This document shows positions 5,846 through 34,012 of a stretch of DNA of 60,344 nt, piece after piece. The notes under the pieces are model-generated. The model was not told the DNA's origin and searched no databases. It worked only from the letters and a program-made list of their open reading frames with translations. Origin of the DNA: Deltaproteobacteria bacterium (GTDB taxonomy: Bacteria; Desulfobacterota; B13-G15; RBG-16-54-18). The stretch's first letter is position 1. Every line of letters starts with the position of its first letter. Where the stretch lies: the NCBI GenBank assembly GCA_019308925.1, contig JAFDHG010000001.1:1-60344 (forward strand), in the 5' to 3' direction. The position numbers and the translations under genes are program-made.

Positions 5846-5866
5846 CCTTCTCATCGATTGAGAAGG
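5846..5866. other. Perfect 8-bp hairpin in the leader of the large glycosyltransferase gene
   Basis: CCTTCTCA-TCGAT-TGAGAAGG forms a perfect 8-bp stem with a five-base loop. It lies between the predicted promoter and the start codon of the minus-strand glycosyltransferase gene. On the plus strand it is followed by AAGTTTTT, so it could also act as a weak terminator for rightward transcription. Its function is not known. Confidence 0.35.
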
Positions 5867-5880
5867 AAGTTTTTACTCAT

Positions 5881-5910
5881 ATAATAGCAAACAAAAAAGG
5901 CTTTAAGCAA
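5881..5910 (-). promoter_or_regulatory. Sigma70-type promoter for the large glycosyltransferase gene
   Basis: On the minus strand, TTGCTT (5905-5910) and TATTAT (5881-5886) are separated by 18 bases. The -10 matches consensus at five of six positions. The predicted transcript would have a leader of about 70 bases containing the hairpin at 5846-5866. Confidence 0.45.
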
Positions 5911-6047
5911 TTAACTTGATTGATAAAGATGACTTGGAGAGGATACTAACTTTTCCTTTACTCAAAATATCCCCCATGGTGTGTACTCTGTCTGGTACGT
6001 TTCTTTTCTACTTTTATATTTCCTGAGATAGCAACATCTATTTTCAG

Positions 6048-8169: not shown

Positions 8170-8178
8170 GAGAAAAGG

Positions 8179-9201: not shown

Positions 9202-9710
9202 TGGATCGATGGAAGCGAGCGGATGAAATCATCGACCGAGTGGAACAGACCCTCATCGCCATCCTGTTAAGCCTTATGATCTTCATCGCCTTTTTGCAGA
9301 TCGTCCTCCGGAATGTTTTTGCCACCGGTCTCTCCTGGGGAGACCCACTGGTAAGGAACCTTGTCCTCTGGGTTGGTTTTATCGGTGCTGCAATTGCCGC
9401 GAGAGAGGGGAAACACATCAACATATATGTGGTTTCTCAATGGATGCCGTTGGGGGGGAAGGGCTTCATCGAGGTTATAAATCAATTGTTTTCCTTTTTT
9501 ATCTGTGGGCTATTGACCTTTGCCGCTCTGAAATTCATCAAAAACGAGGCCCAAATGGGCAGCGTCACCTTTTTAGGGATTCCCGCCTGGATCCCTCAAA
9601 TCATCCTTCCCATAACCTTTGGACTCATGGCCTTCCGATTTGGCCTCCATTCCTTTAAGAACCTTTCTGCGATCGTAAAGATTGGCACAGATCTTGAGGG
9701 AGATACATGA
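9201..9710 (+). CDS. dctQ: TRAP transporter small membrane subunit (DctQ)
   Basis: This is the four-helix small permease subunit that pairs with DctM in the inner membrane and drives solute uptake with a sodium or proton gradient. It has 169 residues with the family motif FARNVFATGLSWGDPL-like segment (here LRNVFATGLSWGDPLVRNLV), then WVGFIGAAIAAREGKHINI. Four hydrophobic segments are visible. The ATG overlaps the dctP stop (TAATG) and the end overlaps dctM by four bases, which implies translational coupling. Confidence 0.92.
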   Translation: MDRWKRADEIIDRVEQTLIAILLSLMIFIAFLQIVLRNVFATGLSWGDPLVRNLVLWVGFIGAAIAAREGKHINIYVVSQWMPLGGKGFIEVINQLFSFFICGLLTFAALKFIKNEAQMGSVTFLGIPAWIPQIILPITFGLMAFRFGLHSFKNLSAIVKIGTDLEGDT

Positions 9711-10963
9711 TCGTTCTTTTGATCATCATCTTTCTCTTGATGCTCTTCGGAGCACCCATCTTCGCCGTTATCTCTGCTCTAGCCCTCCTTTTATTATTCT
9801 CCAGTCAGATCGATTCCTCAGCCATGATCATCGAGATGTATAGGATGGCCACTACTCCCATTCTTGTCGCCATCCCCCTTTTTACCTTTGCCGGATATCT
9901 CCTTTCAGAGAGCGGGGCGTCCAAAAGGTTGATCAGGCTTTCCGATGCGATCCTGGGTTGGTTGCCGGGTGGGCTCTCGGTCATCGCCCTGGTCACCTGT
10001 GCCATCTTTACTGCCCTAACCGGCGCCACAGGTCTCACGATCATCGCCTTGGGAGGTATACTCCTCCCTGCGATGTTACGAGGGAGATATCCAGAAAAGT
10101 TCTCTCTTGGGTTATTGACCACTTCAGGGACATTGGGCCTTCTCTTTCCACCGAGCCTTCCCCTCATCATCTACGCCATTGTGGCAAAGGTGAGAGTTGA
10201 TCAACTCTTTCTGGCAGGTGTCCTGCCTGGCGTCCTTCTGGTGCTTGTGCTCTCCGGGTTCAGTGTTCAGAAAGCCATCCTTGCCGAAGTCCCCAGAACT
10301 AGGTTTAATCTGTTAGAGGTTTTCAAGGCACTGAAGGAATCGATTTGGGAGATCCCCCTCCCCTTCATTGTATTGGGTGGTATCTACAGTGGCTACTTTG
10401 CTATCAGTGAGGCTGCTGCCATCACGGTGGCCTATGTCCTCCTGATCGAAGTGGTCATTTACCGAGATATAAAATGGAGGGAACTGCCACAAATCATGCG
10501 AAAAAGTATGGTTTTGGTGGGTGCGATCTTGATCATTCTTGGCGCTGCCCTCGGTCTGACTAATTATCTAATCGATGCGGAAGTCCCGACAAGGATGTTG
10601 GGTTTTTTCAAGGCGCATATCACCAGCCCCTTCTTTTTCTTGGTAGTGCTGAACTTATTTCTCTTGGCCGTGGGCTGTATCATGGACATATTCTCTGCGC
10701 TGACCGTCGTCGTACCCCTCATCGGTCCGATTGCCCTTGCCTATGGGGTCCACCCCGTTCACCTCGGAATCATCTTCCTTACCAATCTGCAGATCGGCGC
10801 ATCGACTCCCCCATTAGGGATCAACCTTTTCATCTCCAGCATACGTTTTGAAAAACCGGTGTTGAGAATCATACTAGCCTCACTCCCTTTTATTGCCATC
10901 CTCTTGTTTGGCTTAGCGATCATCACCTATTTCCCCTGGTTGAGCCTCGTCCTTTTAAAGTAA
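9707..10963 (+). CDS. dctM: TRAP transporter large permease (DctM)
   Basis: This is the large integral membrane subunit forming the transport path, 418 residues and about 12 hydrophobic segments. Conserved DctM features include LFTFAGYLLSESGASKRL, GATGLTIIALGGILLPAML, GLLFPPSLPLIIYAIVAKV and the C-terminal NLQIGASTPPLGINLF. It starts with an ATGA overlap with dctQ and closes the operon. No clear intrinsic terminator follows before the convergent tRNA-Phe unit. Confidence 0.94.
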   Translation: MIVLLIIIFLLMLFGAPIFAVISALALLLLFSSQIDSSAMIIEMYRMATTPILVAIPLFTFAGYLLSESGASKRLIRLSDAILGWLPGGLSVIALVTCAIFTALTGATGLTIIALGGILLPAMLRGRYPEKFSLGLLTTSGTLGLLFPPSLPLIIYAIVAKVRVDQLFLAGVLPGVLLVLVLSGFSVQKAILAEVPRTRFNLLEVFKALKESIWEIPLPFIVLGGIYSGYFAISEAAAITVAYVLLIEVVIYRDIKWRELPQIMRKSMVLVGAILIILGAALGLTNYLIDAEVPTRMLGFFKAHITSPFFFLVVLNLFLLAVGCIMDIFSALTVVVPLIGPIALAYGVHPVHLGIIFLTNLQIGASTPPLGINLFISSIRFEKPVLRIILASLPFIAILLFGLAIITYFPWLSLVLLK

Positions 10964-12416: not shown

Positions 12417-14309
12417 TTAGAGAGTTGTGTAGATACCATTGAGGGGCATTAAAGGATCATTTCCATGGGGTTCTTGCTCTTTTGTAGCGTAGTAATTAAT
12501 ATCATTAGATAGTAGTTCAATCTCATATTCAGAGAAAAAGTTTTTATATCTGTTCATTAGTTGTTGTATTCTTTTTAGTGCTTCTAAAAAGTAACTATCT
12601 GCAACTTTGATCTTTGCAAATCCTCTTTCAGACGCACCGCTGTAGTCCTTTTTCAAACGGTGATAGCGCAGATTATGTATTTTTATGCCATATGCACGGA
12701 GTAGTACTGCCTTATTCAACTTATGAATTACTTCTTGTATGTTGGAGTCATCTGCCTTGACTTTTTTGATGTCCTTTGCAAGCGCTTCTAATGTGCCCTC
12801 TGCCACAAATACATCAGGGCTTGCTTTATATTCATAATGTTCATATTTAGTCTCTTTAATACCCTTGGTAAATTGATCACTTCCCTTGTTATAATCAAAA
12901 CGCATCAACAATAACGAGGCCAGCGCCCCGATGTTTCCTTCCTGCTTCCTCAGCTCCTTTAATTTTAGCTGGAATTCCTTTACCTTTGTTAGTGCAATAT
13001 ATTTCTTGAAGTGGAGGAGCGACTTTTCAACATCAGTTTCACTACCGAGTTTCATATATGCAAGGCCAAGATTGTAATGAACATGATAGGTTCCCGGCTC
13101 TAGTTCTAGTACTTTTTCGTATTCTTTTATCGCCTCCCTCGTCTGCCCATCTTTAAAGTAAGCATCTGCCAAACCAAAATGAAAAACCGAATCCTTTGGG
13201 TTTTCTTTAACCATTTTCTCATAGATCGCAATTGCCTCAGGGTACTTTTCTTGATTTAAATAAATCCTTGCAATCTTGTTTTCGATAGAAGGGAGACCGA
13301 GCCTCTGATATGCCTTGTTATATCTTACGAGTGCCTCGTCATACCTTCTCAGTTCTTCATAAACTTTCCCTATACTATACTGTACACAACCAATACTCTG
13401 ATCATATGCACCTTGTTTAGAATAAAGCCCTACAGCCTTCTCAAAACTCTTTAGGGCATCCTCAAATTTCCTTTCACCTTTGTAAATATCACCTAATGTT
13501 CTAAAGGCTTCTGCACATTCCTTGTTTAATGAAATTGCCTTCATGGCATAATTTTTTGCCTTTTTATAATCCTTTTTATAACAAAATGCTTCACCTATTT
13601 TATTATATAGTTCTGCGTTATCAGGTTTTATTTGTATTGCCTTCTGATATGTTAATATGGCCTTGTTATAATTAGGATATTTAGGATTAAAAAACGTATA
13701 TAAGTCTGCCAACATCATTAAGACATCATAATTATCGGGCTCTTCTTTTGTTGCCTTTTCCAAATACTCAGTAGCCTTGCCGAATTCGCCAGTATAAAAA
13801 AAAGACATGCCAAGTGCATAGTTGCATCTAAATTCTGATTTATCAATTTTGAGAGAATTTAAGAAGTATTTTATTGTATTTTTATAATCACGCCTTAAAT
13901 AATAGAGGTAAGCATAGCCTTGGAGAAAGCTAGGGTCCTTTTTGTTCGGCTCATATATTCTCTTGTATATTGTGAGACCCTCATCAGGTCCTTCATAATT
14001 AATGGATAGTTTGTCTATTCTTTTAAATAAATTTAATGCATTCCCAAATTCTTGCATCTCAGAGTAGATCATAGCCATTTCAAAAAGAGCAGATGGATGA
14101 CCAGATCCAGTCAAATCATTTGCACGCTTTAAACATTTTAATGCACCTTTATATTCCTTTTTGTCTCTGTATACCTTAGCTAGCAGCAGAAGGGTGTACG
14201 TATCTTCTGGTTTCAATTTCAATGCATTTTTGTATTCATTTATAGCTTGTGATAATTTGCCTAACTTATGATAAACCCTTCCCAATTCTCTATGAAAATC
14301 AGAGGACAT
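12417..14309 (-). CDS. Tetratricopeptide-repeat protein (630 aa)
   Basis: Residues 1-430 are a nearly continuous array of 34-residue TPR units, for example LGRVYHKLGKLSQAINEYKN, LGDIYKGERKFEDALKSFEK and FGLADAYFKDGQTREAIKEY. Such solenoids are protein-interaction scaffolds. The last ~200 residues are helical and unrecognised. There is no signal peptide, so a cytoplasmic location is expected, unless the true start lies further upstream. Codon use is AT-rich, like the next two genes upstream on this strand and unlike the DNA-repair pair before it. It faces the alkyltransferase operon tail to tail. Confidence 0.85.
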   Translation of the reverse strand: MSSDFHRELGRVYHKLGKLSQAINEYKNALKLKPEDTYTLLLLAKVYRDKKEYKGALKCLKRANDLTGSGHPSALFEMAMIYSEMQEFGNALNLFKRIDKLSINYEGPDEGLTIYKRIYEPNKKDPSFLQGYAYLYYLRRDYKNTIKYFLNSLKIDKSEFRCNYALGMSFFYTGEFGKATEYLEKATKEEPDNYDVLMMLADLYTFFNPKYPNYNKAILTYQKAIQIKPDNAELYNKIGEAFCYKKDYKKAKNYAMKAISLNKECAEAFRTLGDIYKGERKFEDALKSFEKAVGLYSKQGAYDQSIGCVQYSIGKVYEELRRYDEALVRYNKAYQRLGLPSIENKIARIYLNQEKYPEAIAIYEKMVKENPKDSVFHFGLADAYFKDGQTREAIKEYEKVLELEPGTYHVHYNLGLAYMKLGSETDVEKSLLHFKKYIALTKVKEFQLKLKELRKQEGNIGALASLLLMRFDYNKGSDQFTKGIKETKYEHYEYKASPDVFVAEGTLEALAKDIKKVKADDSNIQEVIHKLNKAVLLRAYGIKIHNLRYHRLKKDYSGASERGFAKIKVADSYFLEALKRIQQLMNRYKNFFSEYEIELLSNDINYYATKEQEPHGNDPLMPLNGIYTTL

Positions 14310-14479
14310 TGGTTTTTAAAATCAAGCTATTAGCAGTTCCTTCTCTGCAAGATCTAACTGATTCACCTACCTATAAGATAAGCATAACACATCTTCTTTT
14401 TATACGTCTCCATTCCCAGGGCGGAACAGGACAACAGTCACTGCACAGCCTGATCTTTTTCCCCTCCCTCCTCCTCGTA

Positions 14480-15229
14480 CTACTCAACCCTCAATTTTTT
14501 GGATAGTTCCTCCCAGTCCTTCACAACAATTGCATCCTCAGTATCATCAAAGCTGTACCGCTTCCTGATATGTTCAGAAGCTTCAGCCATGAGAGGGGCA
14601 GAGCCAATAATTGCAATGACTTTTATACCCAGTCTGCTTAATTCATCAAGAAGTTCAGCTCCTGTCCATTGTAAGATAACTGGTAAAGGCAAATTCCCTT
14701 CTTCAAGCCACTTCCTCGATCGACTTAACCCAAACTTTGTGGTTAGATAAATAATTCTATATTTGACCATAATCTTTTTTATGCCCTCCCTGCTACCTTT
14801 CTTCGGCTCACGTGAAGAGAGGGACTCCATGATACCTCCCTCAATCTCCAGGAGGATAACCTTTTCATTCTTCCTCGTCACAAGTATCAAACCTTCAGCA
14901 CTTTCACCCCCTGATTTTACCATCACGGTCTTTAAGCCAGAACGTTTCGGGATATATTTAAAAAAGGCATATCCATCCCAACCACTTAATGTCTTTCCTA
15001 TATGTTTGCCGTCTATAAAAAAATCGACAAGTTTGCCACCTGCAGGGAAAAATCTCCCTTTGACAAGTGCCTTCAACATTATTGGTCTCTTTAAGGCTGT
15101 GATACTGTCAAAGACGACAATTTCTGCATGAATCACCGCTGGGAAGAGAAGAAGGAAAAGCGAAAGACATATTATGCTTAAGCCTCTTCCCATGGCTGTT
15201 TTTTTTCGTAATGGATTGATGCTTTTCAC
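14480..15229 (-). CDS. Secreted protein with Ig-like domain and degenerate HAD-like domain
   Basis: A basic N-terminus and hydrophobic stretch ending FPAVIHA form a cleavable signal peptide (residues ~14-36). Residues ~40-125 look like a beta-sandwich (FFPAGGKLVDFFIDGKHIGK). The C-terminal ~110 residues resemble the HAD/LNS2 (App1-like) phosphatase fold: a YLTTKFGLSRSRKWLEEGNL segment is typical of that group. However, the expected DxDGT nucleophile motif appears as LEIEGGI, with Glu at both Asp positions, so catalysis is doubtful. It sits between the TPR gene and a mini-spike gene on the same strand. An internal ATG (residue 13) is an alternative start that still retains the signal. Confidence 0.6.
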   Translation of the reverse strand: MKSINPLRKKTAMGRGLSIICLSLFLLLFPAVIHAEIVVFDSITALKRPIMLKALVKGRFFPAGGKLVDFFIDGKHIGKTLSGWDGYAFFKYIPKRSGLKTVMVKSGGESAEGLILVTRKNEKVILLEIEGGIMESLSSREPKKGSREGIKKIMVKYRIIYLTTKFGLSRSRKWLEEGNLPLPVILQWTGAELLDELSRLGIKVIAIIGSAPLMAEASEHIRKRYSFDDTEDAIVVKDWEELSKKLRVE

Positions 15230-15280
15230 TCGTTTGATGCGGATTTCATCTAAGTGAGAGGTGTAATCAGAACCGTCTCA

Positions 15281-15733
15281 TTAGGGAACAAGGACCGTAG
15301 ATGAACCAACTCCTATTATTCTGGTATTTACAGAGAACCCACCGGTGCTTGCTCCTGATGTTATATCACCCAACCGAGCAACTGGCGTTCCGCCACCATT
15401 TAATTTAAGCAGGGATGATCTAATATCCATCGTTGCGCCAGATCTAATCTCTGTTCGTCCAGACGCACGAATATTCAGATTCGTAGCTGTAATAGTAATA
15501 TTGCCACCAGATCCAATGGCGATGTGCTGTTCTAGTTTCCTTATTCTTTCCTCAAGATTTGCCACCTTTTTACGAAGGTCGTTCATCTGTTTTTGTGAAA
15601 GATCTATAACTCGTTCAAGTCTCTGCACCTCCTTGGCCTGTGGCGTATAGACCTTTTTGTATTGCTGTTGCGCAAAACCCACACTCACACAACACATCAC
15701 GGCAATTAAAATTACATATGTCACTTTGCTCAT
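15281..15733 (-). CDS. Secreted coiled-coil protein with VgrG/PAAR-like tail
   Basis: This 150-residue protein has a signal peptide (start to ~22, ending SVGFAQ), then a coiled coil (RLERVIDLSQKQMNDLRKKV). Next are short beta repeats resembling the needle of VgrG/gp5 spike proteins (GNITITATNLNIRASG, EIRSGATMDI). The last ~35 residues recall PAAR-repeat tips (VARLGDITSG, GVGSSTVLVP). The whole architecture is a miniature trimeric spike with an export signal. A cell-surface adhesin-like or tail-fibre role is an inference. The ATG at 15733 was chosen because GGGAGG lies eight bases upstream; the earlier ATG overlaps that ribosome site. Confidence 0.6.
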   Translation of the reverse strand: MSKVTYVILIAVMCCVSVGFAQQQYKKVYTPQAKEVQRLERVIDLSQKQMNDLRKKVANLEERIRKLEQHIAIGSGGNITITATNLNIRASGRTEIRSGATMDIRSSLLKLNGGGTPVARLGDITSGASTGGFSVNTRIIGVGSSTVLVP

Positions 15734-15802
15734 CTCAATACCTCCCATTTAAAAATAAATTATCCTATAAGGTTCCTCGCTCCATAACTTTCAAGAGGTA
15801 AT

Positions 15803-15827
15803 ATTGGGGTCAACACTTTACTTTATA
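15803..15827. repeat. Left 25-bp inverted repeat of the RAYT unit
   Basis: This is identical, as reverse complement, to 16790-16814. It spans the 3' end of the transposase gene, including its TAA stop (15818-15820 on the minus strand). Confidence 0.85.
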
Positions 15828-16765
15828 TATTTTTCCAACTTTTCGGCCCATTGAAAAGCATGTCCCAAGCCACCTGAATCTTCAATACGCTGTTGGATTT
15901 GTGAAATGCGCGGAACTGATACCTTACCCAATGCAGCTACCTCTTTGATCGGTAAATTGCATGCCCGCCGAAGAAGATAAACCATCACCTGAAACACATC
16001 CCTTCGATCCTGCCTGTCAAGTACCGTCTCTTGTGGTACACCTGCAGCATCGGCAACCGCAGTGCAGATCTGTTCCATACGAGGACGATCAGGCCGCATA
16101 ACCTCCTCAGAGACCTGCTCCCTCGGAATACCTTTTATGCGCTGCGACATCTCTTTTAAAAATTTCTCTTTTCCAAGATATATCTGCCCCCTTAACTTTT
16201 CCCATGGAGATGGCTCACCGGAACCTTCAGCAACAAATTTACGATAGGTACGCTGAGCTTGGACTTTATTTGTCCCAAATTGGCTGAGTATCCAGCCTGT
16301 AGATAACCAGGATGGAGGGTTACCTCCATAAGCTGTGGCCAGATAGCTACTCCACTTCCACTGATCCACATGCTCTACCAAGCCAGCCCGCACAGGGTTA
16401 AGTACCACATAGCGGCATAATTCCAGAAGATAGGATTCTTTCTCTACCAGTATTGCCTTGTATCTTCCCTGAAACAGGTGCCCCACCCGTAAGTGGCGGC
16501 GATTAAACCACTGCGCATACACCGCATTAAGTCGGGCCATTCCACAGCTCAGATTAGCATCCGGTGTCTCGATAACTAAATGGTAGTGATTGTCCATTAA
16601 ACAATAGGCATAGCAAACCCATCGTTGTTGGTGGATCTCATGGCCCAACAACTCCAAAAACCGATGGCGGTCTGAATCATCTTCATAGATAATCTGCCGC
16701 GCATTCCCCCGTGAGGTCACGTGATAGACAGCACATTCAAATTCAATTCGAAGTGGACGTGACAT
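15818..16765 (-). CDS. REP-associated tyrosine transposase (RAYT, Y1_Tnp family)
   Basis: This is a 315-residue HUH single-strand transposase. The N-terminus MSRPLRIEFECAVYHVTSRG is typical of the group. The HUH motif is HYH at residues 60-62 (CLMDNHYHLVIET), and the catalytic tyrosine lies in the SYLLELCRYVVLNPVRAGL segment (~111-129). The C-terminal ~100 residues look like a DnaA-type helix-turn-helix (ACNLPIKEVAALGKVSVPRI), found in the longer RAYT subgroup and probably used for site recognition. RAYTs move or maintain REP-like hairpins in single-stranded DNA. The frame is intact, so the protein may be active. Confidence 0.9.
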   Translation of the reverse strand: MSRPLRIEFECAVYHVTSRGNARQIIYEDDSDRHRFLELLGHEIHQQRWVCYAYCLMDNHYHLVIETPDANLSCGMARLNAVYAQWFNRRHLRVGHLFQGRYKAILVEKESYLLELCRYVVLNPVRAGLVEHVDQWKWSSYLATAYGGNPPSWLSTGWILSQFGTNKVQAQRTYRKFVAEGSGEPSPWEKLRGQIYLGKEKFLKEMSQRIKGIPREQVSEEVMRPDRPRMEQICTAVADAAGVPQETVLDRQDRRDVFQVMVYLLRRACNLPIKEVAALGKVSVPRISQIQQRIEDSGGLGHAFQWAEKLEKYIK

Positions 16766-18546: not shown

Positions 18547-20408
18547 TCCTCTCCCTCCAACATCTGGGCGAGCCTCTCCTGAAAGACCACCCTCTTGAGA
18601 CACCAAGGGAGTTCACCATAAACCCTTCTTTCCGGAGGGTGAAATCCCAAGACCTTATAGATGAGATAGCCATGGGGTACCTCTATCACCGGGGTGATCT
18701 CCCCCTCCTGGAAGGAAGAGATGATCTCGGCAAGATCCCAACCATCCTGGAGATAGACCCTATCCTGGACCCCCCCCAATCCCGCTGTGATCCCTTGTGA
18801 ACATTCCCTGGCCACCTGGGAGAATTCCTCCCCTTCCATAACCCTTCGGTAGGCCTCCTGGATGACCATATAGGCCTCTTCCCGCGTCTTGGGTCCATCC
18901 TTGGGATGGACATAGCGAAAGATCACCTGGAGGTCAACGCTGGGTGGCAAGAGGACCTCTTCGTCCGGGCAGGGTTGGGCCTTATGATAGAGCTCTTGCG
19001 TCATGACCTCATAGAGGGCCACCTCTTCCCTCAGCCTCTCACAAAAGCCATCCTCCTCCATCCCCAATCGTCTCAGCAGGGCCTGATAGTCCTCAAAAGA
19101 GAAGAACTGCTTTTTTAGGGAACGCCAAAAGATCTCGGCACCATCAGCATCAAAAAGTGGAGGGGGCGGGTTGGCGTCCTTGGATCCCCTCCCCTTTACA
19201 CGGGGGAGGGAGGCGTGGCGATGGTGCAGGGAGGTCCTTACTTGGCAGATATACCCCTCATCCTGTTCCCTCATCCCTTGATAGGAGAAATAGGAAAAAC
19301 CGTTGATCCCTATCCCTTTGAGCCCCTCCACCTCCTGCTGGATCTGGGCAGGGGTCTTGATCCAGGCCCCCAGCCCGGCGAATACCATCCCCGCCTTCTC
19401 CCTCCTCTTGGCCTCGGCCATCTGGGCCACCACCCGCGTTTGATCCCCGTGGTAGGCCATGGGAACGACCAAATCCATATATCCCTGGGCGAGCCAGGTG
19501 GGCCAGTCCTGCCCTTTGAGATAATAGGCCACCTGGGGGTCAGGGAGCACCGCCGCAGAGAGGATGACCTGAGGCCTGATGGCCTTCACCTCCCTGTGGA
19601 TATCCCTCACGAGCTCGGTAATATAGTGGCTTCTTGTCTCCGCCCAAAGGGAGTAATAATAGTAGTGCCAGCGCAGGTGCAGGGGGAGCCTTCCTTGAAT
19701 AAACCTCTCGGGCAAGGGGTTTTTCACCCAGGAGGAAAGCAGCCGGGGGTCCACCCCCCAGCGCCGGACAAACGCCTCCACAGCCTCCTTGTTAAAACCC
19801 CAGTGGGGTCCTGGATAGCGGATGAAGTCGAGGTGTACCCCATCCACATCATATCCCTTGACCACCTCTTTGCATACCTGCAGGAAATAATCCCGGACCT
19901 GGGTGTTAGCGGGATCAAGGTATATACCCTCGCTGGGCTCCTTGGCCCTTTCATATGGATCGTATTGGGCGAGGTTGCGCCCCTCCTCGTCCACGATCAA
20001 CCACTCTGGATGGCGGTTAACCACGTGCTCTAGGGAAAGGGGGTAAGGGGGAGGATAAGGCCATACATAAAAGCAGTTGAGCCAGGCGTGTATCTGCAAC
20101 CCTGCGGCATGCCCCCGCTGCAGGATATAGCTCAGGGGATCGTATTTGCAGGGTGTATCTGCCAGGACCTCGGCCCATGGATCAATCTGGGAGCGATAGT
20201 AGGCATCCCCTCGGCCGTGGACCTGCACAAAAAGGAGATTGAACCTCCCCCGTCTGGCGTCCTCCACGATCTCATTTAGCACTGTGGGGGAGGTCAGCCG
20301 ATACCTCACCACCCATATGCCTCTGCCCTCGTGCGGGAAGCAGCCGCTGATGGCAAGGGAAAGGAGGACTATCACCTGAAAGACAAAGAAACGACGCAAC
20401 TTCATCAC
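18543..20408 (-). CDS. Lipoprotein fusion: GHL10 glycosidase-like domain plus parvulin PPIase domain
   Basis: This 621-residue protein has a lipoprotein signal (LSLAISGC, Cys23). Residues ~28-385 are a TIM-barrel of the GHL10/DUF187 (YngK-like) family, with a conserved strand VDGVHLDFIRYPG (188-200), YLDPAN and VVPMAYHGDQ. Residues ~491-595 are a SurA/PpiC-type rotamase domain (DLQVIFRYV, EGEEFSQVARECSQG, GEITPVIEVPHGYLIYKVL). GHL10 proteins are thought to cleave cell-wall-related glycans; parvulins isomerise prolyl bonds in exported proteins. I do not know of this domain combination as an established family. Its start overlaps the upstream binding-protein stop by four bases and its end overlaps the permease, so it is coupled to a peptide-uptake system. 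Confidence 0.85.
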   Translation of the reverse strand: MMKLRRFFVFQVIVLLSLAISGCFPHEGRGIWVVRYRLTSPTVLNEIVEDARRGRFNLLFVQVHGRGDAYYRSQIDPWAEVLADTPCKYDPLSYILQRGHAAGLQIHAWLNCFYVWPYPPPYPLSLEHVVNRHPEWLIVDEEGRNLAQYDPYERAKEPSEGIYLDPANTQVRDYFLQVCKEVVKGYDVDGVHLDFIRYPGPHWGFNKEAVEAFVRRWGVDPRLLSSWVKNPLPERFIQGRLPLHLRWHYYYYSLWAETRSHYITELVRDIHREVKAIRPQVILSAAVLPDPQVAYYLKGQDWPTWLAQGYMDLVVPMAYHGDQTRVVAQMAEAKRREKAGMVFAGLGAWIKTPAQIQQEVEGLKGIGINGFSYFSYQGMREQDEGYICQVRTSLHHRHASLPRVKGRGSKDANPPPPLFDADGAEIFWRSLKKQFFSFEDYQALLRRLGMEEDGFCERLREEVALYEVMTQELYHKAQPCPDEEVLLPPSVDLQVIFRYVHPKDGPKTREEAYMVIQEAYRRVMEGEEFSQVARECSQGITAGLGGVQDRVYLQDGWDLAEIISSFQEGEITPVIEVPHGYLIYKVLGFHPPERRVYGELPWCLKRVVFQERLAQMLEGED

Positions 20409-28627: not shown

Positions 28628-28666
28628 CAGCCGCACCCATGTGAGACAAAGAAATCTTTCTCTGAT

Positions 28667-28745
28667 AAACCCTTATGAGGGTTTGCCCTCACCCCGCCTA
28701 TGAAAAATATAGGATTCGAGGGTTCAAGTGTTCAAGTGTTTGTGT
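28667..28745. repeat. Dispersed intergenic repeat, copy 2 (reverse orientation)
   Basis: It starts with a perfect hairpin AAACCCT-TATG-AGGGTTT (28667-28684) followed by GCCCTCAC and CATAGG/GGATTC phrases. Read as reverse complement, it aligns with the copy at 40080-40156 through GAATCCT, TATATTTTTCATAGG, GTGAGGGCAAACCC and AGGGTTT. This alignment in opposite orientation shows a true dispersed repeat. The rest of 28572-28935 holds the operon promoter and no other gene I can support. Confidence 0.6.
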
Positions 28746-28935
28746 TGTACCTTCTGCCAGGTTTTCGACCTGTCCTGCGGGGGACGCAGCCCCCTGAAGC
28801 AAGACCAAGAACATGTTAGAGGACGAAATGGTTTAGAAGCTTACTTAGATAGAATTTTTTAAAAGGATGTAGTTGAAAAGTGAGATTGCCTGGGTTAAAA
28901 TTAGAAAAACTTAAAAATGAGATGAAAAGAGATAA

Positions 28936-29027
28936 AGGTTGGTTAGCTTGGGATTCGTCCAGAGGGATATATATCCGAACTTCGGATATAGTGCTGGCGG
29001 GTAACTGAAATCAGGTTAACGAAGGGG
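28936..29027 (+). other. First attC-like or attI-like site of the cassette array
   Basis: A 21-base perfect palindrome TATATCCGAA-C-TTCGGATATA (28970-28990) is flanked by GGTTAGC on the left (about 28940) and GTTAACGAAGGGG on the right (29015-29027). The right end resembles the GTT-core plus GAAATGG tag of the later sites. It precedes the first cassette gene by 19 bases. Confidence 0.4.
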
Positions 29028-29046
29028 AAAGGGAGAGATTTATAAA

Positions 29047-29607
29047 ATGCCAAGTGCGTGGGTACATGCAACAATAGATTTGATTGCCTACGGAAGACCT
29101 TATTTCGATCTTCATAAAGAAAAAGACGAACCCTACAAAAAACTTGGGCGGAACCACAGGAAGATAAGACATGAATGGTATCAAGCCTTTGGGAAAAAGT
29201 GGACTTTGGATGAACCTTTTTCAGCTTGCTTGAAAGATCAAATCTCAAAAATAAGAAGCATAAACGGCCCTAATAAAGCAGAAAAGCAAATGGCGTATAT
29301 AGATCATGATTACATTGATAGAATATGGGATACTCTTTCACCGCCAGAGAGAAAATATAGAGAAGGATTTTTTGCCTGGATACTATTCAATCCAAGAATC
29401 CTCAAAGAATGGGCAGGAGTGGGTGTTTTGGATAGTAGAATACAGAGGATGATTGATAGTTGTGAAGTGTGGGAATATTGTCCTGAGTTGAAAGATGAAT
29501 ATGAAAGGCTATGCAGTTATGTAAAGGTCGTGATAGAGAACGACGGGATTTTGCAAAATATGTTAGAACGCTATGGGCAGAAAGAATATATACCTGACTT
29601 CGGCTAA
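29047..29607 (+). CDS. Cassette gene 1: hypothetical protein (186 aa)
   Basis: This is a soluble protein with no membrane segment and no family that I recognise. It is rich in aromatic and charged residues, with several His/Asp clusters (MPSAWVHATIDLIAYGRPYF, KLGRNHRKIRHEWYQAFG, YIDHDYIDRIW). These could bind a metal, but I do not assign a function. AAGGGAGAG lies nine bases before the ATG. The stop codon is inside the left arm of the following palindrome, as in many integron cassettes. Confidence 0.75.
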   Translation: MPSAWVHATIDLIAYGRPYFDLHKEKDEPYKKLGRNHRKIRHEWYQAFGKKWTLDEPFSACLKDQISKIRSINGPNKAEKQMAYIDHDYIDRIWDTLSPPERKYREGFFAWILFNPRILKEWAGVGVLDSRIQRMIDSCEVWEYCPELKDEYERLCSYVKVVIENDGILQNMLERYGQKEYIPDFG

Positions 29608-29693
29608 TAGCGTGTTTGCGATTCGCCCATCGGGCTCACCCAAACCGCCTATGTCGGCTTTGCAAATACGGAAAGCGTTAGCCGAAACTGGCC
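29599..29693 (+). repeat. attC-like site 1
   Basis: Outer arms TTCGGCTAA (29599-29607) and TTAGCCGAA (29678-29686) pair perfectly. Inner arms CGTGTTTGC (29611-29619) and GCAAATACG (29662-29670) pair with one G-T. The right core is GTTAGCC (29677-29683), followed by the tag GAAACTGGCC. The two nested stems separated by short unpaired spacers match the R''-L''...L'-R' layout of attC sites. Confidence 0.6.
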
Positions 29694-29711
29694 ATTTGAA
29701 AGGAGGACGAA

Positions 29712-30731
29712 ATGAAAAAGCATATTGAATTTATACCAGTTCTGTGCACCTTAACGATTCTATTAGTGGTGGGGTGCGGCAAAATTGGGTCAAGTCCCAA
29801 AGCCGTTTTATCCAAGTATCTTGATGCTTCTCTTCATGGCAGACATGAGGAAGCCTATCAATACATTTCTGCTAAAGATAAGGCTATAAAGAGCCTACAT
29901 GAATATTTATCAGATCAGCAAAAGGAGGAAAGTCCTTTCGCACAAGTCCTTGCCAGCAAGGTCTCGTACGAGATCAAAGAGGTTACAATAGATGGGAATC
30001 AAGCCAAAGCAAATGTCGATGTTACTATTCCAGATTTTGGAGTGATATTCAAAGATATTTTAGGGGCAGCTTTTATGTCAGCTTTTGGAGAAAAGAAGGA
30101 TAAAAAAGAGATTGAGAAAATGTTAACAGAAGAGTACAAAGGGAAAGATATCCCTATGACAACTACAACTCAATTTTTTGAATTGGTTAAGGAAGTAGAC
30201 GGTTGGAAAGTCTTTTTTGATTGGAAGACAAAGAAGAAAGTTGATGCAGCAATGAGTCAGGCAAAGCAACTTGAAAAAGAGAAAAAACTCTATGCTGCAA
30301 AAGAGAAGTATCAGGAAGTTTTGGAACTTGATAGTGAAGTTGTAGAGGCTTCAGAAAAAATAAAGGAGCTTGATGAGAAGATAAAAAGTTTCAAGGAAAA
30401 ACAAGCCTATGTGGATAACGTTAAAATCAGAAATTTGGAAGTCGCAAAAGCACTGTTAGGAGGACTTGGAGTATTTGGAGAAGTAAAGAATCTTGGAGAT
30501 CGTACGTTAACAGAGGTAGAAATTACGATCTATTTTCTTGATAAGAATGGAAATCCCATCTTTGAGAAAACCTATTACCCTGTCCTAGTGTCGAAATGGT
30601 CCTTTGGCGATCGTGCTCAACCCTTGAAACCAGGCTACATTAGGAAATTTGGTGTGAAGGCCGATAACGCTCCTTCTGAATGGGCGAAAAAAGTTAGGGT
30701 GAAAGTTACTGATATTAAGTTTGAAAAGTAA
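29712..30731 (+). CDS. Cassette gene 2: lipoprotein (339 aa)
   Basis: A lipoprotein signal peptide (LCTLTILLVVGCG, lipobox VVGC) leads to three regions. Residues ~30-160 resemble the NTF2-like/DUF4878-type fold of small exported proteins (AVLSKYLDASLHGRHEEAYQ, then VDGWKVFFDW). A lysine-rich coiled coil follows (AMSQAKQLEKEKKLYAAKEK). Residues ~235-339 form a beta domain like the FxLYD family (GVFGEVKNLGDRTLTEVEIT, PLKPGYIRKFG). AGGAGG is seven bases from the ATG. Role unknown; a surface-exposed or periplasmic binding function is possible. Confidence 0.8.
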   Translation: MKKHIEFIPVLCTLTILLVVGCGKIGSSPKAVLSKYLDASLHGRHEEAYQYISAKDKAIKSLHEYLSDQQKEESPFAQVLASKVSYEIKEVTIDGNQAKANVDVTIPDFGVIFKDILGAAFMSAFGEKKDKKEIEKMLTEEYKGKDIPMTTTTQFFELVKEVDGWKVFFDWKTKKKVDAAMSQAKQLEKEKKLYAAKEKYQEVLELDSEVVEASEKIKELDEKIKSFKEKQAYVDNVKIRNLEVAKALLGGLGVFGEVKNLGDRTLTEVEITIYFLDKNGNPIFEKTYYPVLVSKWSFGDRAQPLKPGYIRKFGVKADNAPSEWAKKVRVKVTDIKFEK

Positions 30732-30752
30732 CAGATTTATTTGACCAACTTC

Positions 30753-30833
30753 GGCAAACAAGGCACAAACGACTACTGTCAAAATTGCTTCGCAACTTTG
30801 TTTGTGCCGATACCGTTATACGCCACTTGGGCC
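30753..30833 (+). repeat. attC-like site 2
   Basis: Arms GGCACAAAC (30762-30770) and GTTTGTGCC (30800-30808) pair perfectly around an inner hairpin TTGC-TTC-GCAA (30785-30795). A GTTATAC core follows at 30815-30821, after a six-base spacer, then GCCACTTGGGCC. A GGCAAAC segment at 30753-30759 is the likely left core. A second perfect hairpin (AATTGAAAA ... TTTTCAATT, 30837-30859) lies in the leader of the next gene. Confidence 0.55.
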
Positions 30834-30888
30834 ATAAATTGAAAAACGCATTTTCAATTCGAAACTAATAAATAAAGGAGCGTCAATC

Positions 30889-31605
30889 ATGCAAGAAGTC
30901 ACTGTATCCTTAGATTTAGCTGATATCTTACGTGAAAAAATTGATGATTGTGCAAAATTCAATAGAAATGTTCAAGTATCAAAAGAGGTTCTTGATTCCT
31001 ATATACATAACAAAAGAATTCTATCTCAGGAGGAAACTGAACAAGCAGAGGGTTTCTTATTCTCCCGTTTTCTTGAGCTTTTTTTGGACGCCAAGGAAGC
31101 TTTAATAATTCCTGAAGATGCCGTACATAGGATAGCTGCTGAGTATCTCACCAATTTTGATGATATAGGAATCACATATGCTTATCAGGACTTTTATGCA
31201 TACCAATTTGTTGATAAACTAAACGATATAGTTCGCCGTGCTGCTAAAGTTAGAGAGCTATTTACCAAAAAACAGCCTCCACCAAGCGTAACCAAGATAT
31301 GCCGTGAGGCTTATCTTAGCTATTTATACGGATTTCACACATCTTCAGTAGCGTTATTGAGGACTATTATAGAGTCAATGTTGAAAGAACGTCTTGACAT
31401 AGATATTGGTGAACTATGGAAACTGAATGATCTGGCCTGCGATCGAGGTATCTATCCAAAGCGAATCTGGCATAAAGTTAACCAAATTAGGAAAGAGGTA
31501 AATAGTTTTGTCCACGAGGTTTCTATGGGGAAAGCACCTTCAGAGAGCAAGAATATTCAACTTATAGGAATTGCCCAAGAAGTACTGAAAGCAATACTTG
31601 AGTGA
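30889..31605 (+). CDS. Cassette gene 3: DUF4145-like protein (238 aa)
   Basis: This is a soluble helical protein. The C-terminal ~110 residues resemble the DUF4145 domain (SYLYGFHTSSVALLRTIIES, then a LWKLNDLACDRG helix and NQIRKEVNSFVHE), which often occurs in restriction and defence-associated proteins. The N-terminal ~120 residues are not recognised. AAAGGAG precedes the ATG by nine bases. A defence role is only a suggestion from the domain's usual company. Confidence 0.75.
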   Translation: MQEVTVSLDLADILREKIDDCAKFNRNVQVSKEVLDSYIHNKRILSQEETEQAEGFLFSRFLELFLDAKEALIIPEDAVHRIAAEYLTNFDDIGITYAYQDFYAYQFVDKLNDIVRRAAKVRELFTKKQPPPSVTKICREAYLSYLYGFHTSSVALLRTIIESMLKERLDIDIGELWKLNDLACDRGIYPKRIWHKVNQIRKEVNSFVHEVSMGKAPSESKNIQLIGIAQEVLKAILE

Positions 31606-31652
31606 TCTTAAGCAATTGGGATGTGGAATCAAAAATCAGATGGCCCAGCAGC

Positions 31653-31735
31653 GTGTAACACCAAACAAACAGCTTCATTTCGCCAAAATCACTTTGTGAC
31701 TTCGTTTGTTTGGAAGCCGATGTGCGAAATGGTCC
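31653..31735 (+). repeat. attC-like site 3
   Basis: Arms CCAAACAAAC (31661-31670) and GTTTGTTTGG (31704-31713) pair perfectly. A left core GTGTAAC (31653-31659) precedes them. The right core position holds GATGTGC (31719-31725), a poor GTT match, but is followed by the shared tag GAAATGGTCC. Confidence 0.5.
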
Positions 31736-32132
31736 GGCTTCACCTCCTTCCTTGGCGGTGGGCAAAAAAACCTATCTAACAGATATGCAGCCAATCTTCT
31801 CCAGAGAATCCATTTCCCTGTCAAGGAGACCCCCCTGCTATTTATCCTCAAAATTTTATGCTAAAATGGATAAAGATAATCAAGGGAAGCCGAAATGGTA
31901 AGAAATACCAAACAGGCCCTTTGGCCATTTTGCTCATCGGGGCACGGCTGTGCGAAGCTTGCAGGCCACCTCTTACCAGGATTGCCCCCACTGCTAAAGA
32001 CGGGCCGCTTCGCCCATCTTTCGGGCGTACGGCCTGCGACAAAAATTGCCTCAAAGGGCCAACTTCGCACATCCGAGCCCCGTTTCACGAAATTGACTGC
32101 CAGCTTTTTGGCATGCTAAAAAGGAGGATACT
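31736..32132 (+). other. Gene-less cassette-like segment with large hairpin (attC-like site 4)
   Basis: No credible gene lies here. A second tag AAGCCGAAATGG occurs at 31888-31898. A 145-base hairpin follows: CGGGGCACGGCTGTGCGAAG (31938-31957) pairs with 32063-32082 at 18 of 20 positions, and GCAGGCC (31961-31967) pairs perfectly with GGCCTGC (32031-32037). The right end is GTTTCAC (32082-32088) plus GAAATTG. Long open frames crossing the hairpin have repeat-driven, Cys/Arg/Pro-rich translations and are rejected. Confidence 0.5.
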
Positions 32133-32199
32133 ATGGTGGACATTCATCCAGCAGTTTGGGCAGCAATAATTAGGAGCGATAGGAGGGATAATATCAGCC
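32133..32199 (+). other. Frameshifted 5' end of cassette gene 4
   Basis: An ATG at 32133 with a perfect AAGGAGG five bases upstream opens MVDIHPAVWAAII. If one base near 32172 (in ATTAGGAGCG) is skipped, the frame continues as GAIGGIISAVITKRKVAP, a natural membrane helix, into the gene annotated from 32200. Without the shift it becomes a Ser/Arg-rich tail. This indicates either a real +1 frameshift, a mutation or a sequencing error. Confidence 0.6.
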
Positions 32200-32832
32200 G
32201 TGATTACGAAAAGAAAAGTTGCACCCATAGTAGTAGGGATAGTAGTAGGGATAATCATAGGAGCTGTCGGGAGTACAGTCATTACCAGAATTGTATCTGG
32301 AAAGGAGCCACTACGAACCCTCCATGCTCCTTTTGACATGCCTTCCTACTTTTATCCCTCAGGATGGATGGGAGATGGGGAATCAGGCACAAGGTACATC
32401 CAACTCAATACAACCTTTCGTGAAAGCCCTCGTCTTGGCGATACTGACAGTGCTTGCATCAAGATAAGGTGTCAGCCAGGCCCGAAGGGTTGGGCAGGTA
32501 TCTTTTGGCAGTACCCTGATAGTAATTGGGGTGACCAACCAGGATCGAAGATTGTAGGAGCTACAAGAATTGTCTTTTGGGCAAAGGGGGAAATAGGTGG
32601 CGAAATAGTTGAATTTAAGGCGGGAGGAATTAGAGCCCCCAACAAGCGTTATCGAGACAGTTTTGAAGTTTCGCGAGGGCGTATTAGCCTCCCAAGAGAT
32701 TGGGCAAGGTACGAGATTAGTCTATCGGGGCAAAACCTTTCCCATGTTATAGGGGCATTTGCCTGGGTAGCGACAAGGGATGCAAATCCTAATGGTTTGA
32801 CATTCTACATAGATGATATTCGATATGAATAA
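32200..32832 (+). CDS. Cassette gene 4: membrane-anchored beta-sandwich protein
   Basis: From the GTG at 32200 the protein has one membrane helix (VAPIVVGIVVGIIIGAVGST) then ~170 extracytoplasmic residues. These resemble a carbohydrate-binding-type beta sandwich: aromatic residues (FDMPSYFYPSGWMG), AGIFWQYPDSNWGDQPGSK, RIVFWAKGEIGGE, and a closing TFYIDDIRYE strand typical of CBM-like jelly rolls. The native protein probably begins at 32133 and has two helices (see the frameshift entry). The ligand is unknown. Confidence 0.7.
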   Translation: MITKRKVAPIVVGIVVGIIIGAVGSTVITRIVSGKEPLRTLHAPFDMPSYFYPSGWMGDGESGTRYIQLNTTFRESPRLGDTDSACIKIRCQPGPKGWAGIFWQYPDSNWGDQPGSKIVGATRIVFWAKGEIGGEIVEFKAGGIRAPNKRYRDSFEVSRGRISLPRDWARYEISLSGQNLSHVIGAFAWVATRDANPNGLTFYIDDIRYE

Positions 32833-32879
32833 GCTAGCAGTCAACTATGCGCTCCCTTCGGTCGCTTGCCCTTCGGGTC

Positions 32880-32966
32880 GGCTAACACGGTGTTGCCGAC
32901 TTCGCTATGCTTCGTGCAGATCACCTGCGGCGACTTCGGTAACCCCGAAACCGCTAGGCGAAATGG
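32880..32966 (+). repeat. attC-like site 5
   Basis: Left core GGCTAAC (32880-32886) is followed by CGGTGTTGCCGA, which pairs at 10 of 12 positions with TCGGTAACCCCG near 32936-32947. The right core is GCTAGGC (32953-32959), one base from GTTAGGC, then the tag GAAATGG (32960-32966). The inner part contains a GCAG...CTGC stem. Confidence 0.55.
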
Positions 32967-32988
32967 CGAATTGGTGAGGTAAACACAA

Positions 32989-33384
32989 ATGCATAGCTTC
33001 GATCTGAGACACCGTGGATTTAAACATTGGGTTGATTTTCGGCTTACAAACGAAGCCGAGTTAGGAAACACTTTACCTGATAAGAATGGTGCTTATGTAA
33101 TTCGAGACAGGTGTGACTTTGGCAGATACTTAAAAACCTCAGATATAGTTTGTATTGGGCATGCACCAAAACAATCTTTGAAAAATAGGATCTCCTTATA
33201 TTTCAAGGGGTATAAAAACCAAAGGACAAACAAAAAGATTCATGACTGGCTATTGCGATTTAACACTTTTCAAATTTCTTGGATTGAAGTCGATAATGCT
33301 GAGAAGTGTGAAGAAATAGAGCGAGAGTTACTAAATGCATATCAGGAGGACCATGGTGAACTGCCACCATTCAATGCTCAATAA
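32989..33384 (+). CDS. Cassette gene 5: GIY-YIG-like nuclease (131 aa)
   Basis: This small protein matches the GIY-YIG layout: NGAYVIRDR for the first strand, SDIVCIGHAP for the second, SLKNRISLYFKGYKN with the catalytic-type Arg, and CEEIERELLNAYQEDHGELP with the metal-binding Glu, ending in PPFN. Stand-alone members cut DNA in mobile elements or repair. The two signature triplets are altered (GAY, CIG), so activity is not certain. Confidence 0.65.
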   Translation: MHSFDLRHRGFKHWVDFRLTNEAELGNTLPDKNGAYVIRDRCDFGRYLKTSDIVCIGHAPKQSLKNRISLYFKGYKNQRTNKKIHDWLLRFNTFQISWIEVDNAEKCEEIERELLNAYQEDHGELPPFNAQ

Positions 33385-33401
33385 ATTGTATTTGCCACTT
33401 C

Positions 33402-33487
33402 GCCCAACGTATATTAAAGCCCATGGGTCAAGAGAAATGATTTCTCGCAGGCGAAAAGGTCATCTCTTTTCGTCCCCTGTAACGGCC
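33402..33487 (+). repeat. attC-like site 6
   Basis: Left core GCCCAAC (33402-33408) is a perfect match to the RYYYAAC consensus of attC left ends. Two hairpins follow, GAGAAAT-G-ATTTCTC (33432-33446) and CGAAAAG-N7-CTTTTCG (33452-33472). The right end is GTAACGGCC, a poor GTT core. The site precedes hicBA by about 30 bases. Confidence 0.45.
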
Positions 33488-33517
33488 AGTATGATTTATT
33501 AAACAGGAGGTGTAAAG

Positions 33518-33730
33518 ATGAGATACAGAGTTTTGATTGAACAGGACGAAAATGGGATGTTCGCTGTTGAATGCCCTTCTTTGCCAGGATGTATTTCTCA
33601 AGGTAAAAACCGAAAAGAAGCCCTTAAAAATATTCAAGATGCCATTAAAGGCTATTTAGAAAGTCTAAAAAAACACAATGAACCTGTGCCACCATCAATT
33701 GAAGAAGAGATTGTAGAAGTAGCAGTATGA
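33518..33730 (+). CDS. hicB: HicB antitoxin
   Basis: The 70-residue protein has the HicB ferredoxin-like core: YRVLIEQDENGMFAVECPSL, PGCISQGKNRKEALKNIQDA, then a short acidic C-terminus. This is the degenerate RNase H-like antitoxin fold that neutralises HicA. It has no C-terminal DNA-binding domain, so autoregulation would need another factor. AGGAGGTG lies six bases from the ATG. It overlaps hicA by four bases. Confidence 0.93.
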   Translation: MRYRVLIEQDENGMFAVECPSLPGCISQGKNRKEALKNIQDAIKGYLESLKKHNEPVPPSIEEEIVEVAV

Positions 33731-33951
33731 CTAAATTACCCGTAGTTTCTGGCAGGCAACTCTGTAAGATATTGGAAAACATAGGGTATCTTATTGATCA
33801 CCACACAGGGAGTCATATCATTCTTAGAAATATAAATCCTCCTTATAGGAGATTGACTGTGCCGGATCATAAGGAAATTGCTAAAGGTACTTTGAGAGCA
33901 ATTATGCGGCAAACTGGTTTGACTGTGAAGGAATTTAAGAAATTGGTATAA
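33727..33951 (+). CDS. hicA: HicA mRNA interferase toxin
   Basis: The 74-residue dsRBD-like toxin has SGRQLCKILENIGYLIDHHT, then the catalytic histidine in GSHIILRN (His30), and the closing DHKEIAKGTLRAIMRQTGLT. HicA cuts mRNA ribosome-independently when HicB is lost. The ATGA overlap with hicB ensures coupled translation. The antitoxin-first order and position at the end of a cassette array fit a stabilising module. Confidence 0.94.
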   Translation: MTKLPVVSGRQLCKILENIGYLIDHHTGSHIILRNINPPYRRLTVPDHKEIAKGTLRAIMRQTGLTVKEFKKLV

Positions 33952-34012
33952 AGGAAACCCCTGTCATCCAATTCAAGAGGTTTGGCTATCTGTGGGCTGC
34001 TAAGATAATTTC

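Follow-up and report, generated by a model that had tools for sequence, protein, structure and literature searches.

An array of apparently mobile gene cassettes with non-canonical folded sites in a deltaproteobacterial genome, and a likely partner recombinase lacking the I2 insertion

The inserted block and its genes

The window analysed here (60,344 nucleotides of contig JAFDHG010000001.1, assembly GCA_019308925.1, from a Deltaproteobacteria bacterium) contains a 5.4 kb block between two old minus-strand operons (Table 1). The block is entirely plus-strand and AT-rich, with a GC content mostly of 36-45% vs about 53-55% in the flanks. Its seven open reading frames (ORFs), spanning 29047 to 33951, encode unrelated products, namely a lipoprotein, a GIY-YIG-like protein, a HicB/HicA pair and proteins without any hit, and the genes are separated by palindromes. 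This agrees with the first-pass annotation, which had been made from the nucleotide sequence alone and described an AT-rich block of mostly unrelated genes with palindromes between them; the unit at 31719-31938, however, has no convincing ORF.

In four relatives, the genes flanking the block are only about 60 bp apart, and the block is missing. The array placed at 28936-33951 is real, but the inserted DNA extends beyond these limits on both sides. Inside its left edge lies a dispersed repeat with copies 76-92% identical on three other contigs of the genome (C26, C44 and C8); relatives carry shorter matches to it. Neither the left boundary of cassette 1 nor the point where the HicBA unit ends could be resolved.

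The array DNA had no match in phage records, PADLOC left the cassette proteins unmatched, and the sole match in an Rfam search of the window was a tRNA. It should be noted that all genome-wide statements on this genome rest on search tools.

Table 1. Features of the inserted block. R'' and R' are the left and right ends of a site; R3 is the model of right arms described in the text; own-end match is the score of a unit's start against its own end.
Feature	Position	Strand	Description
Inserted block	28628-34012 (edges approximate)	+	From synteny and empty site in relatives
Dispersed repeat	28665-28794	+	Inside left edge of block; not belonging to any cassette
Cassette 1 gene	29047-29607	+	186 aa, no family match; start boundary unresolved
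Type-B site s1	29602-29683	+	R'' GGCTAAT 29602-29608, R' GTTAGCC 29677-29683; R3 52.5 bits, training site
Cassette 2	29677-30759	+	R' to own R''; own-end match 10, row maximum
Cassette 2 gene	29712-30731	+	339-aa lipoprotein, weak DUF2393 match
Type-B site s2	30753-30821	+	R'' GGCAAAC, R' GTTATAC at 30815; R3 46.2 bits, training site
Cassette 3	30815-31659	+	Own-end match 12, row maximum
Cassette 3 gene	30889-31605	+	238 aa, no family above cut-off
Type-B site s3	31653-31725	+	R'' GTGTAAC, L stem 9/9, R' GATGTGC at 31719; R3 49.1 bits, training site
Unit 4	31719-31938	+	No convincing ORF
Type-B site s4	31932-32088	+	Long loop; R' GTTTCAC at 32082; R3 55.9 bits, training site
Cassette 5	32082-32855	+	Own-end match 8, tied for row maximum; fails automatic test; R'' placement uncertain
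Cassette 5 gene	32200-32832	+	GTG start, 210 aa, no family match
Type-B site s5	32880-32959	+	R'' GGCTAAC 32880, R' GCTAGGC 32953; R3 48 bits, training site
Cassette 6	32953-33408	+	Own R'' GCCCAAC 33402-33408; own-end match 11, row maximum
Cassette 6 gene	32989-33384	+	131 aa, weak GIY-YIG match
HicBA unit (last)	33518-33951	+	HicB-like antitoxin 33518-33730, HicA toxin 33727-33951 (Pfam)

The sites and the units they bound

The palindromes of the array, together with their relatives elsewhere, were named type-B sites. They are folded palindromes of about 70-160 nt, with the layout R''-1 nt-9-bp L stem-structured loop-5 nt-GTT. The right ends first reported at 29677 (GTTAGCCGAAACTGG), 30815 (GTTATACGCCACTTGG), 31719 (GATGTGCGAAATGG), 32082 (GTTTCACGAAATTG) and 32953 (GCTAGGCGAAATGG) are all present, although two of them have no literal GTT, and so are the left ends GCCCAAC at 33402 and GGCTAAC at 32880. 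The GAAATGG-like tag proposed as a further marker had to be abandoned, because its pattern (GTTNNNCGAAATGG) occurs at chance level genome-wide. For s5, an alternative R'' ends at 32855. After the HicBA unit no site is recognisable and R3 gives no match, while a left-type end precedes the unit at 33402.

The extrahelical base of the L stem is mostly missing in type-B sites: 16 of 30 pair 9/9 without a bulge, including s2 (GGCACAAAC/GTTTGTGCC) and s3. An inner hairpin is conserved, in which an A.C mismatch on the top strand is a T.G pair on the bottom strand; the covariation of this hairpin alone is modest. When folded with DNA parameters, the bottom strand was the better folder in 27 of the 30 sites and in all five of the window. 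The 30 sites are related, and therefore do not represent 30 independent cases.

Two attC covariance models made in this analysis (R1 and R2) gave no credible match in the array, and detected 13-16 canonical attCs scattered elsewhere in the genome. For integrons and CALINs we follow the IntI- and attC-based definitions of IntegronFinder 2.0 (PMC9024848); the criterion for a canonical CALIN, at least two attC sites found by an attC covariance model, is not met with R1 and R2. The layout is thus not 'exactly' that of attC, as had been stated, considering also the unequal spacers and the mostly missing extrahelical base. The window array is not an ordinary CALIN, and its sites are a separate family.

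A third model (R3), built from the right arms, scored 46-56 bits at the five window sites and no more than 9.8 bits anywhere in the 60-kb window outside the array. The window sites served to train R3, whose E-values are only approximate; the model also recovers unseen arrays, both in this genome and in other genomes belonging to other families. Other searches were discarded: a hand-made R''/R' motif finder matched the background as often as the array, its power being too low, a regular-expression scan for the type-B core performed poorly, and the pattern CTTCGCACANTCCGAGCC failed to detect the window array on account of a single-base indel.

The start of each internal unit matches the reverse complement of its own end, and in the window this assignment is the best of 120 pairings. 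For 19 type-B cassettes, the own-end score was reached by none of 200,000 permutations, the mean pairing score being 7.9 for own ends vs 3.8 within the same site. An IntI-adjacent control array behaves likewise. This is as expected of units that were formerly circles joined at G|TT. The integron-cassette criterion of a unit interconverting with a circle, so that its start pairs with its own end, is met, with the caveat that units 4 and 5 pass only if R'' is chosen knowing the start; the criterion of absence from the equivalent place in relatives is met by the empty site. Because the insertion is absent in relatives and the units match their own ends, the block is a mobile cassette array. Together with the folding bias, this bears out the earlier suggestion of a mobile array with possibly divergent attC sites between old operons. 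An initial own-end test, in which the segments were wide and not anchored, was weak (240 of 5040 permutations scored as high) because they ran into neighbouring hairpins, and was superseded by the anchored tests.

Unit 4 reached an own-end match of 10 with R'' = GCTCATC ending at 31938, which is lost under automatic placement. A 76% copy of this unit on contig C14 begins exactly at the predicted cassette edge, 31719.

Strong hairpins are common between same-direction genes, and one could regard the block as foreign neighbouring genes split by transcription terminators, whose palindromes have no role in movement. Such hairpins predict pairing within a site and not between the ends of a unit, and the site family is sequence-conserved across genomes; the own-end permutation test refutes this explanation, which retains practically no weight. 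Slightly less implausible, though still improbable, are MITE-like or transposon units with terminal inverted repeats, set side by side by chance. In formal terms, a match between the two ends of a unit is a terminal inverted repeat, and dispersed repeats do exist in the genome. However, the units are head-to-tail, with one hairpin per junction and every gene in the same direction, four arms compared are alike (constant) up to GTT and different (variable) beyond it, the bottom-strand bias holds in 27 of 30 sites, and the same arrangement is found again next to a site-specific recombinase. The transposon criterion of a transposase plus a target-site duplication is not met either: no transposase family was found among the array proteins, and visual inspection of both block edges showed no duplicated target bases.

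The recombinase beside type-B arrays

In other genomes, type-B arrays sit just 3' of a tyrosine recombinase, here called IntB. At all eight IntB loci with a nearby type-B match, the sites share the strand of IntB and lie on its 3' side; among 11 close IntB homologues, no more than 5 had a site within the first flanks searched, several of which were cut by contig ends. Alignments with IntIs showed that IntB has no IntI-specific insertion (the additional domain, I2), and its IntI score is under the cut-off. The IntB of genome G047 scores 245.9, vs a curated cut-off of 220, with NCBIfam NF040815 ('site-specific tyrosine recombinase/integron integrase'), and an N-terminal extension gives a weak HARP match. 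The first cassette after IntB in G047 is HicBA, which is also the last unit of the window array. In the cultured bacterium Rufibacter tibetensis, the gene of a related I2-less recombinase (108490-109944 of plasmid NZ_CP012644.1) precedes an array that shows the same signature.

The absence of an integrase, noted at first, is true of the window, so that the criterion for a complete integron, an IntI with the additional domain beside the array, is not met. Elsewhere, the genome has a full-length IntI on contig C25, with its array side cut by the contig end, an internally deleted IntI on C11 and a C-terminal IntB remnant on C9; no intact IntB was found in this genome. Canonical attCs adjoin IntI and not type-B/IntB loci, with one exception (G189, where an IntB homologue lies beside canonical sites), and type-B sites were not found at the IntI loci examined. 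The full-length IntI of the host appears to serve the other, canonical set of attCs, and the I2-less recombinase, here a remnant only, is the likely partner of the window sites.

We consider it probable (about 0.75) that the block is an array of mobile cassettes with non-canonical type-B sites, whose cognate enzyme is IntB and which is orphaned in this genome. IntB, a tyrosine recombinase related to XerA and IntI, would recognise a bottom-strand hairpin made of the 9-bp L stem and the conserved inner hairpin, excise cassettes as circles and reinsert them, so that the array would have been built from circular units cut and joined at G|TT inside folded attC-like sites; only the C-terminal IntB fragment would have remained, with IntI serving different attCs. 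Recombination by IntB and its action on folded single strands are inferred, and no recombination has been observed. The IntI of the genome could in principle act on the window sites.

That IntI, its deleted counterpart and the scattered canonical attCs also leave some room for an ordinary CALIN, in which canonical cassettes were taken up by the host's own IntI and then decayed, or in which another kind of attC is still served by it; some core bases in the window are indeed eroded (GAT, GCT). Random decay would not leave a right arm conserved with many unseen sites of other arrays and genomes, and the separation between IntI and IntB loci described above also argues against this possibility, which we regard as unlikely.

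pdif modules are gene modules moved by XerC/XerD, with short dif-like sites. Movement of the cassettes in trans by the chromosomal XerC/XerD, in the manner of such modules, might be suggested by a unit 4 copy and an s4-like site that adjoin xerD-like genes in this genome and in G003 (the right arm of s4 recurs on C16, C44 and in G003). However, other type-B arrays adjoin IntB and not xer genes, and long folded palindromes are unlike short dif sites. Very little speaks for this mechanism. Type-B cassettes would resemble pdif modules in that genes are moved as modules by Xer-type recombination, and differ from them in that pdif sites are short, double-stranded and not folded like attC, and have no dedicated recombinase.

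Relation to integrons and significance

As in integrons and CALINs, promoter-poor accessory genes lie in one direction, each followed by a palindromic site with AAC...GTT ends, a G|TT crossover, complementarity within its own cassette and a bottom-strand folding bias. Unlike in those systems, the window sites have no credible attC-model match, the left spacer is 1 nt vs about 5 nt on the right, the L stem is mostly without an extrahelical base, the recombinase associated with such sites is without the IntI insertion and, in other genomes, the array lies 3' of its gene on the same strand. The G047 enzyme exceeds the cut-off for XerA-like recombinases (NF040815). Archaeal XerA, according to the available part of PMC8138268, works at dif in chromosome dimer resolution; the IntB gene, instead, accompanies cassette arrays and carries the N-terminal extension. 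The same part of that paper describes an integron-like subgroup of simple tyrosine recombinases in which the integron-specific insertion is not fully conserved, a feature that IntB shares, and in that part neither cassette arrays nor sites are described for the insertion-less members.

Acquisition of the I2 helix, which reads extrahelical bases, is believed to have enabled integron integrases to recombine single strands; the authors of that work point out that the causal link has not been proven directly (PMC7790495). Here, I2-less recombinases accompany sites mostly without L-stem extrahelical bases, and the cassettes still behave like former circles, and the bottom strands of the sites fold better. 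Cassette capture may predate the I2 helix, because IntI branches among I2-less relatives; if the I2-less system is indeed older, cassette recombination would be uncoupled from the event to which it is usually attributed. Should IntB be the enzyme, this question could be tested in cultured bacteria such as R. tibetensis.

The evidence leans, by no wide measure, towards a second, widespread cassette-capture system, based on I2-less XerA-like IntB enzymes, some with a HARP-like N-terminus, and on their own folded sites, mostly without L-stem extrahelical bases. By inference, and without running the published tools, surveys relying on attC models and the IntI domain may miss type-B arrays, so that the pool of cassette genes in Desulfobacterota-like and Bacteroidota lineages would be underestimated.

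An inserted array of cassettes

The window is one contig (C1) of a genome of 2.40 Mb (G000, 99% complete). It contains a 5.4-kb block of plus-strand ORFs whose GC content is mostly 36-45%, against 53-55% around it. In four relatives, the gap between the solute-binding gene and the return of the TPR-operon side is just about 60 bp long, and in the window the block starts directly behind ...GTGTCAAC (GTTGACAC on the minus strand). Because of this near-empty site and this exact start, the block is an insertion, which bears out the first-pass annotation of an array inserted between two minus-strand operons. The named relatives, 83-87% identical to the window across the adjacent gene for the solute-binding protein, are uncultured Deltaproteobacteria (B11_G15, CSMAG_1136, RBG_13_52_11). 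A DNA search of 59 genomes returned no cassette-level copy of the array beyond parts of unit 4, parts of site s4 and repeats.

Features of the window, of other contigs of its genome and of loci elsewhere
Feature	Contig or locus	Position	Remark
Block of plus-strand ORFs	window	28628-34012	between minus-strand ExbB/TPR operon and minus-strand solute-binding protein gene
Dispersed repeat (AGGATTCGAGGGTTCAAGTGTTCAAGTGTTTGTGTT...)	window	28665-28794	common to C26, C44, C8 and several relatives
HicB/HicA pair	window	33518-33951	last unit of array
HicB/HicA pair	G047, L420	5979-6430	first cassette after IntB
Two further AT-rich stretches	window	2001-6000; 13001-16000	about 35-42% GC
Full-length IntI	G000, C25 (L028)	18558-19796	start about 70 bp from contig end
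IntI with deleted middle, two divergent genes and canonical attC	G000, C11 (L029)	7850-10430	IntI of 247 aa
Canonical attC sites	G000: C18, C39, C38, C41, C86, C7, C17, C11, C82, C3, C46, C30		
Unseen R3 sites	G000: C15 (three), C67 (two), C26, C65, C82, C14, C45		
Distant I2-less recombinase with weak R3-like sites	L351	4437-7358	IMG/VR contig filed as viral
Distant I2-less recombinases	L369, L362, L364, L359		IMG/VR contigs filed as viral
IntB-like recombinase and gene row	L425	8987-16655	Chryseobacterium sp. SNU WT5 plasmid

In the linear array of an integron, the last bases of the right arm R' belong to the next cassette, and therefore a cassette start should pair with its own end, not with the adjoining one. 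For window units 2-6, the own-end match was the row maximum in each case (tied for unit 5), with scores of 10, 12, 10, 8 and 11 compared with same-site scores of 8, 5, 1, 2 and 1, and the identity assignment of starts to ends was the best of 120. Random GTT/AAC pairs in the window reached 10, 11 and 12 at frequencies of 0.0015, 0.00035 and 0.00005. It should be noted that R'' was chosen with the start already known for units 4 and 5, and without such a choice for units 2, 3 and 6. An automatic test, in which nothing but the L stem and AAC determines where R'' is placed, was applied to 19 cassettes with sites of the window's family (type B) from five genomes (G000, G013, G045, G046, G168). Mean scores were 7.9 (own), 4.1 (other) and 3.8 (same-site), and 0 of 200,000 permutations reached the observed own-end score; window units 4 and 5 fail this test. 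As a control, the array adjoining a real integron integrase (IntI) in the relative G004 behaves in the same way. In addition, contig C14 of the same genome carries a 76% copy of unit 4, which has no convincing ORF, and this copy starts exactly at 31719, the predicted cassette edge. We conclude that the window array is an inserted array of once-circular cassettes.

The type-B sites

Two covariance models of canonical attC sites were used. R1 (five class-1 and three same-family attCs) recovers held-out attCs, and in the G000 genome it matches 13 sites, none of them in the window array; R2 (24 canonical sites) has 16 matches in G000 and up to 22 in genomes of the same family, and found nothing credible in the array. 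Canonical attCs are dispersed among numerous contigs, both in G000 and in G001, G003, G004 and G006, with as many as 22 in a genome of this family; often they stand alone, at a distance from any IntI.

A common right arm (AAAT-hairpin-ACTTC, L', a spacer of 5-6 nt such as CGAAACC, GTT) is present in the five window sites and in ectopic copies from contigs C16 and C44 and from G003. Four arms show high identity as far as GTT and a drop beyond, as expected for crossover there. R3, a model built from eight arms of this kind, window sites included, detected ten unseen sites in G000 (E <= 0.01) and others in G013, G045, G046 and G047. The full layout is R''(..AAC)-A-9-bp L''-structured loop-TCRCCCAAAT-hairpin-ACTTC-L'-about 5 nt-GTT. 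In 16 of 30 sites, the L stem is fully paired (9/9, no bulge), so that classical extrahelical bases are mostly absent. The A.C mismatch that the inner hairpin retains on its top strand corresponds to a T.G pair in the bottom strand; taken by itself, this hairpin shows modest covariation. With DNA parameters, the bottom strand folds more stably in 27/30 sites. Type-B sites form a distinct, conserved and strand-asymmetric family, associated elsewhere with a recombinase lacking I2, the IntI-specific additional domain.

The sites do not have exactly the attC layout originally ascribed to them. The units pass the circle and bottom-strand tests, but not the attC-model (R1, R2), extrahelical-base and IntI tests. 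For this reason, the array is described as working like an integron cassette array, and is not filed as a canonical CALIN.

Genes of the type-B array on C15 include RDD-family, nitroreductase and lgt-like ones, besides proteins without hits. C15 has a cassette start (GTTATCGGAAATGACCGCAAAC) in common with G047, a genome of another family, and this points to lateral movement of cassettes.

Recombinases

A tyrosine recombinase without I2, IntB, adjoins type-B sites in G045, G046, G047 and others. It scores 231.5 bits, in two pieces, against the IntI model (below the cut-off of 265) and 245.9 bits against XerA-like NF040815 (cut-off 220). In alignments it lacks about 36 residues present in IntIs, a stretch that we interpret as the additional-domain region; its N-terminal extension weakly matches HARP. 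Among the loci of close IntB homologues or of IntB remnants, eight have an R3 match nearby, and in all eight it lies downstream on the same strand, although one or two of the matches are weak (13.9-17 bits); distant homologues have no convincing R3 match nearby. Next to the IntI of G046, R2 has nine matches in the classic divergent arrangement; R3 has none there, nor any of weight at other IntI loci. The exception is an IntB homologue in G189, with canonical sites instead of type-B ones. In a tree of 34 proteins, XerC/D and IntI each occupy one side of a branch (support 100/100), close IntBs form a group (95/89) with the G189 homologue outside, and IntI is placed among I2-less relatives (root by midpoint only). 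We infer that IntB would make type-B arrays, acting on folded bottom strands.

According to published work, the acquisition of I2, which reads extrahelical bases, enabled IntI to recombine single strands; the same work notes that this has no direct proof (PMC7790495). Literature searches, limited to open-access papers without preprints, showed in titles and abstracts no description of cassette arrays for I2-less enzymes. Because coverage was limited in this way, the novelty of such arrays is probable, not proven.

The array had been reported to lack an integrase; the genome does encode IntI elsewhere, full-length on C25 and with its middle deleted on C11, and an IntB remnant near the end of contig C9 (a C-terminal piece, 58% identical to IntB residues 297-349). 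No intact IntB was found in G000 at E <= 1e-45. Since the C25 gene starts so close to the contig end, its own array, if any, is unassembled there. The C11 gene adjoins two divergent genes resembling a restriction-modification pair, then a canonical attC.

In a cultured bacterium, Rufibacter tibetensis 1351, plasmid 1 carries a related recombinase that is 40% identical and lacks the insertion; behind it, on the same strand, come small genes separated by palindromic AAC...GTT sites. Six of these sites, read by eye without a covariance model, give own-end matches of 9, 8, 11, 10 and 11 and within-site matches of 3-6 (best of 120). At the IMG/VR loci, weak R3-like sites lie upstream of the recombinase on the opposite strand; in L351, genes run opposite to site orientation. 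IS110-family elements and group II introns both target attC sites, and one of each interrupts the same-strand row of small genes behind the Chryseobacterium recombinase.
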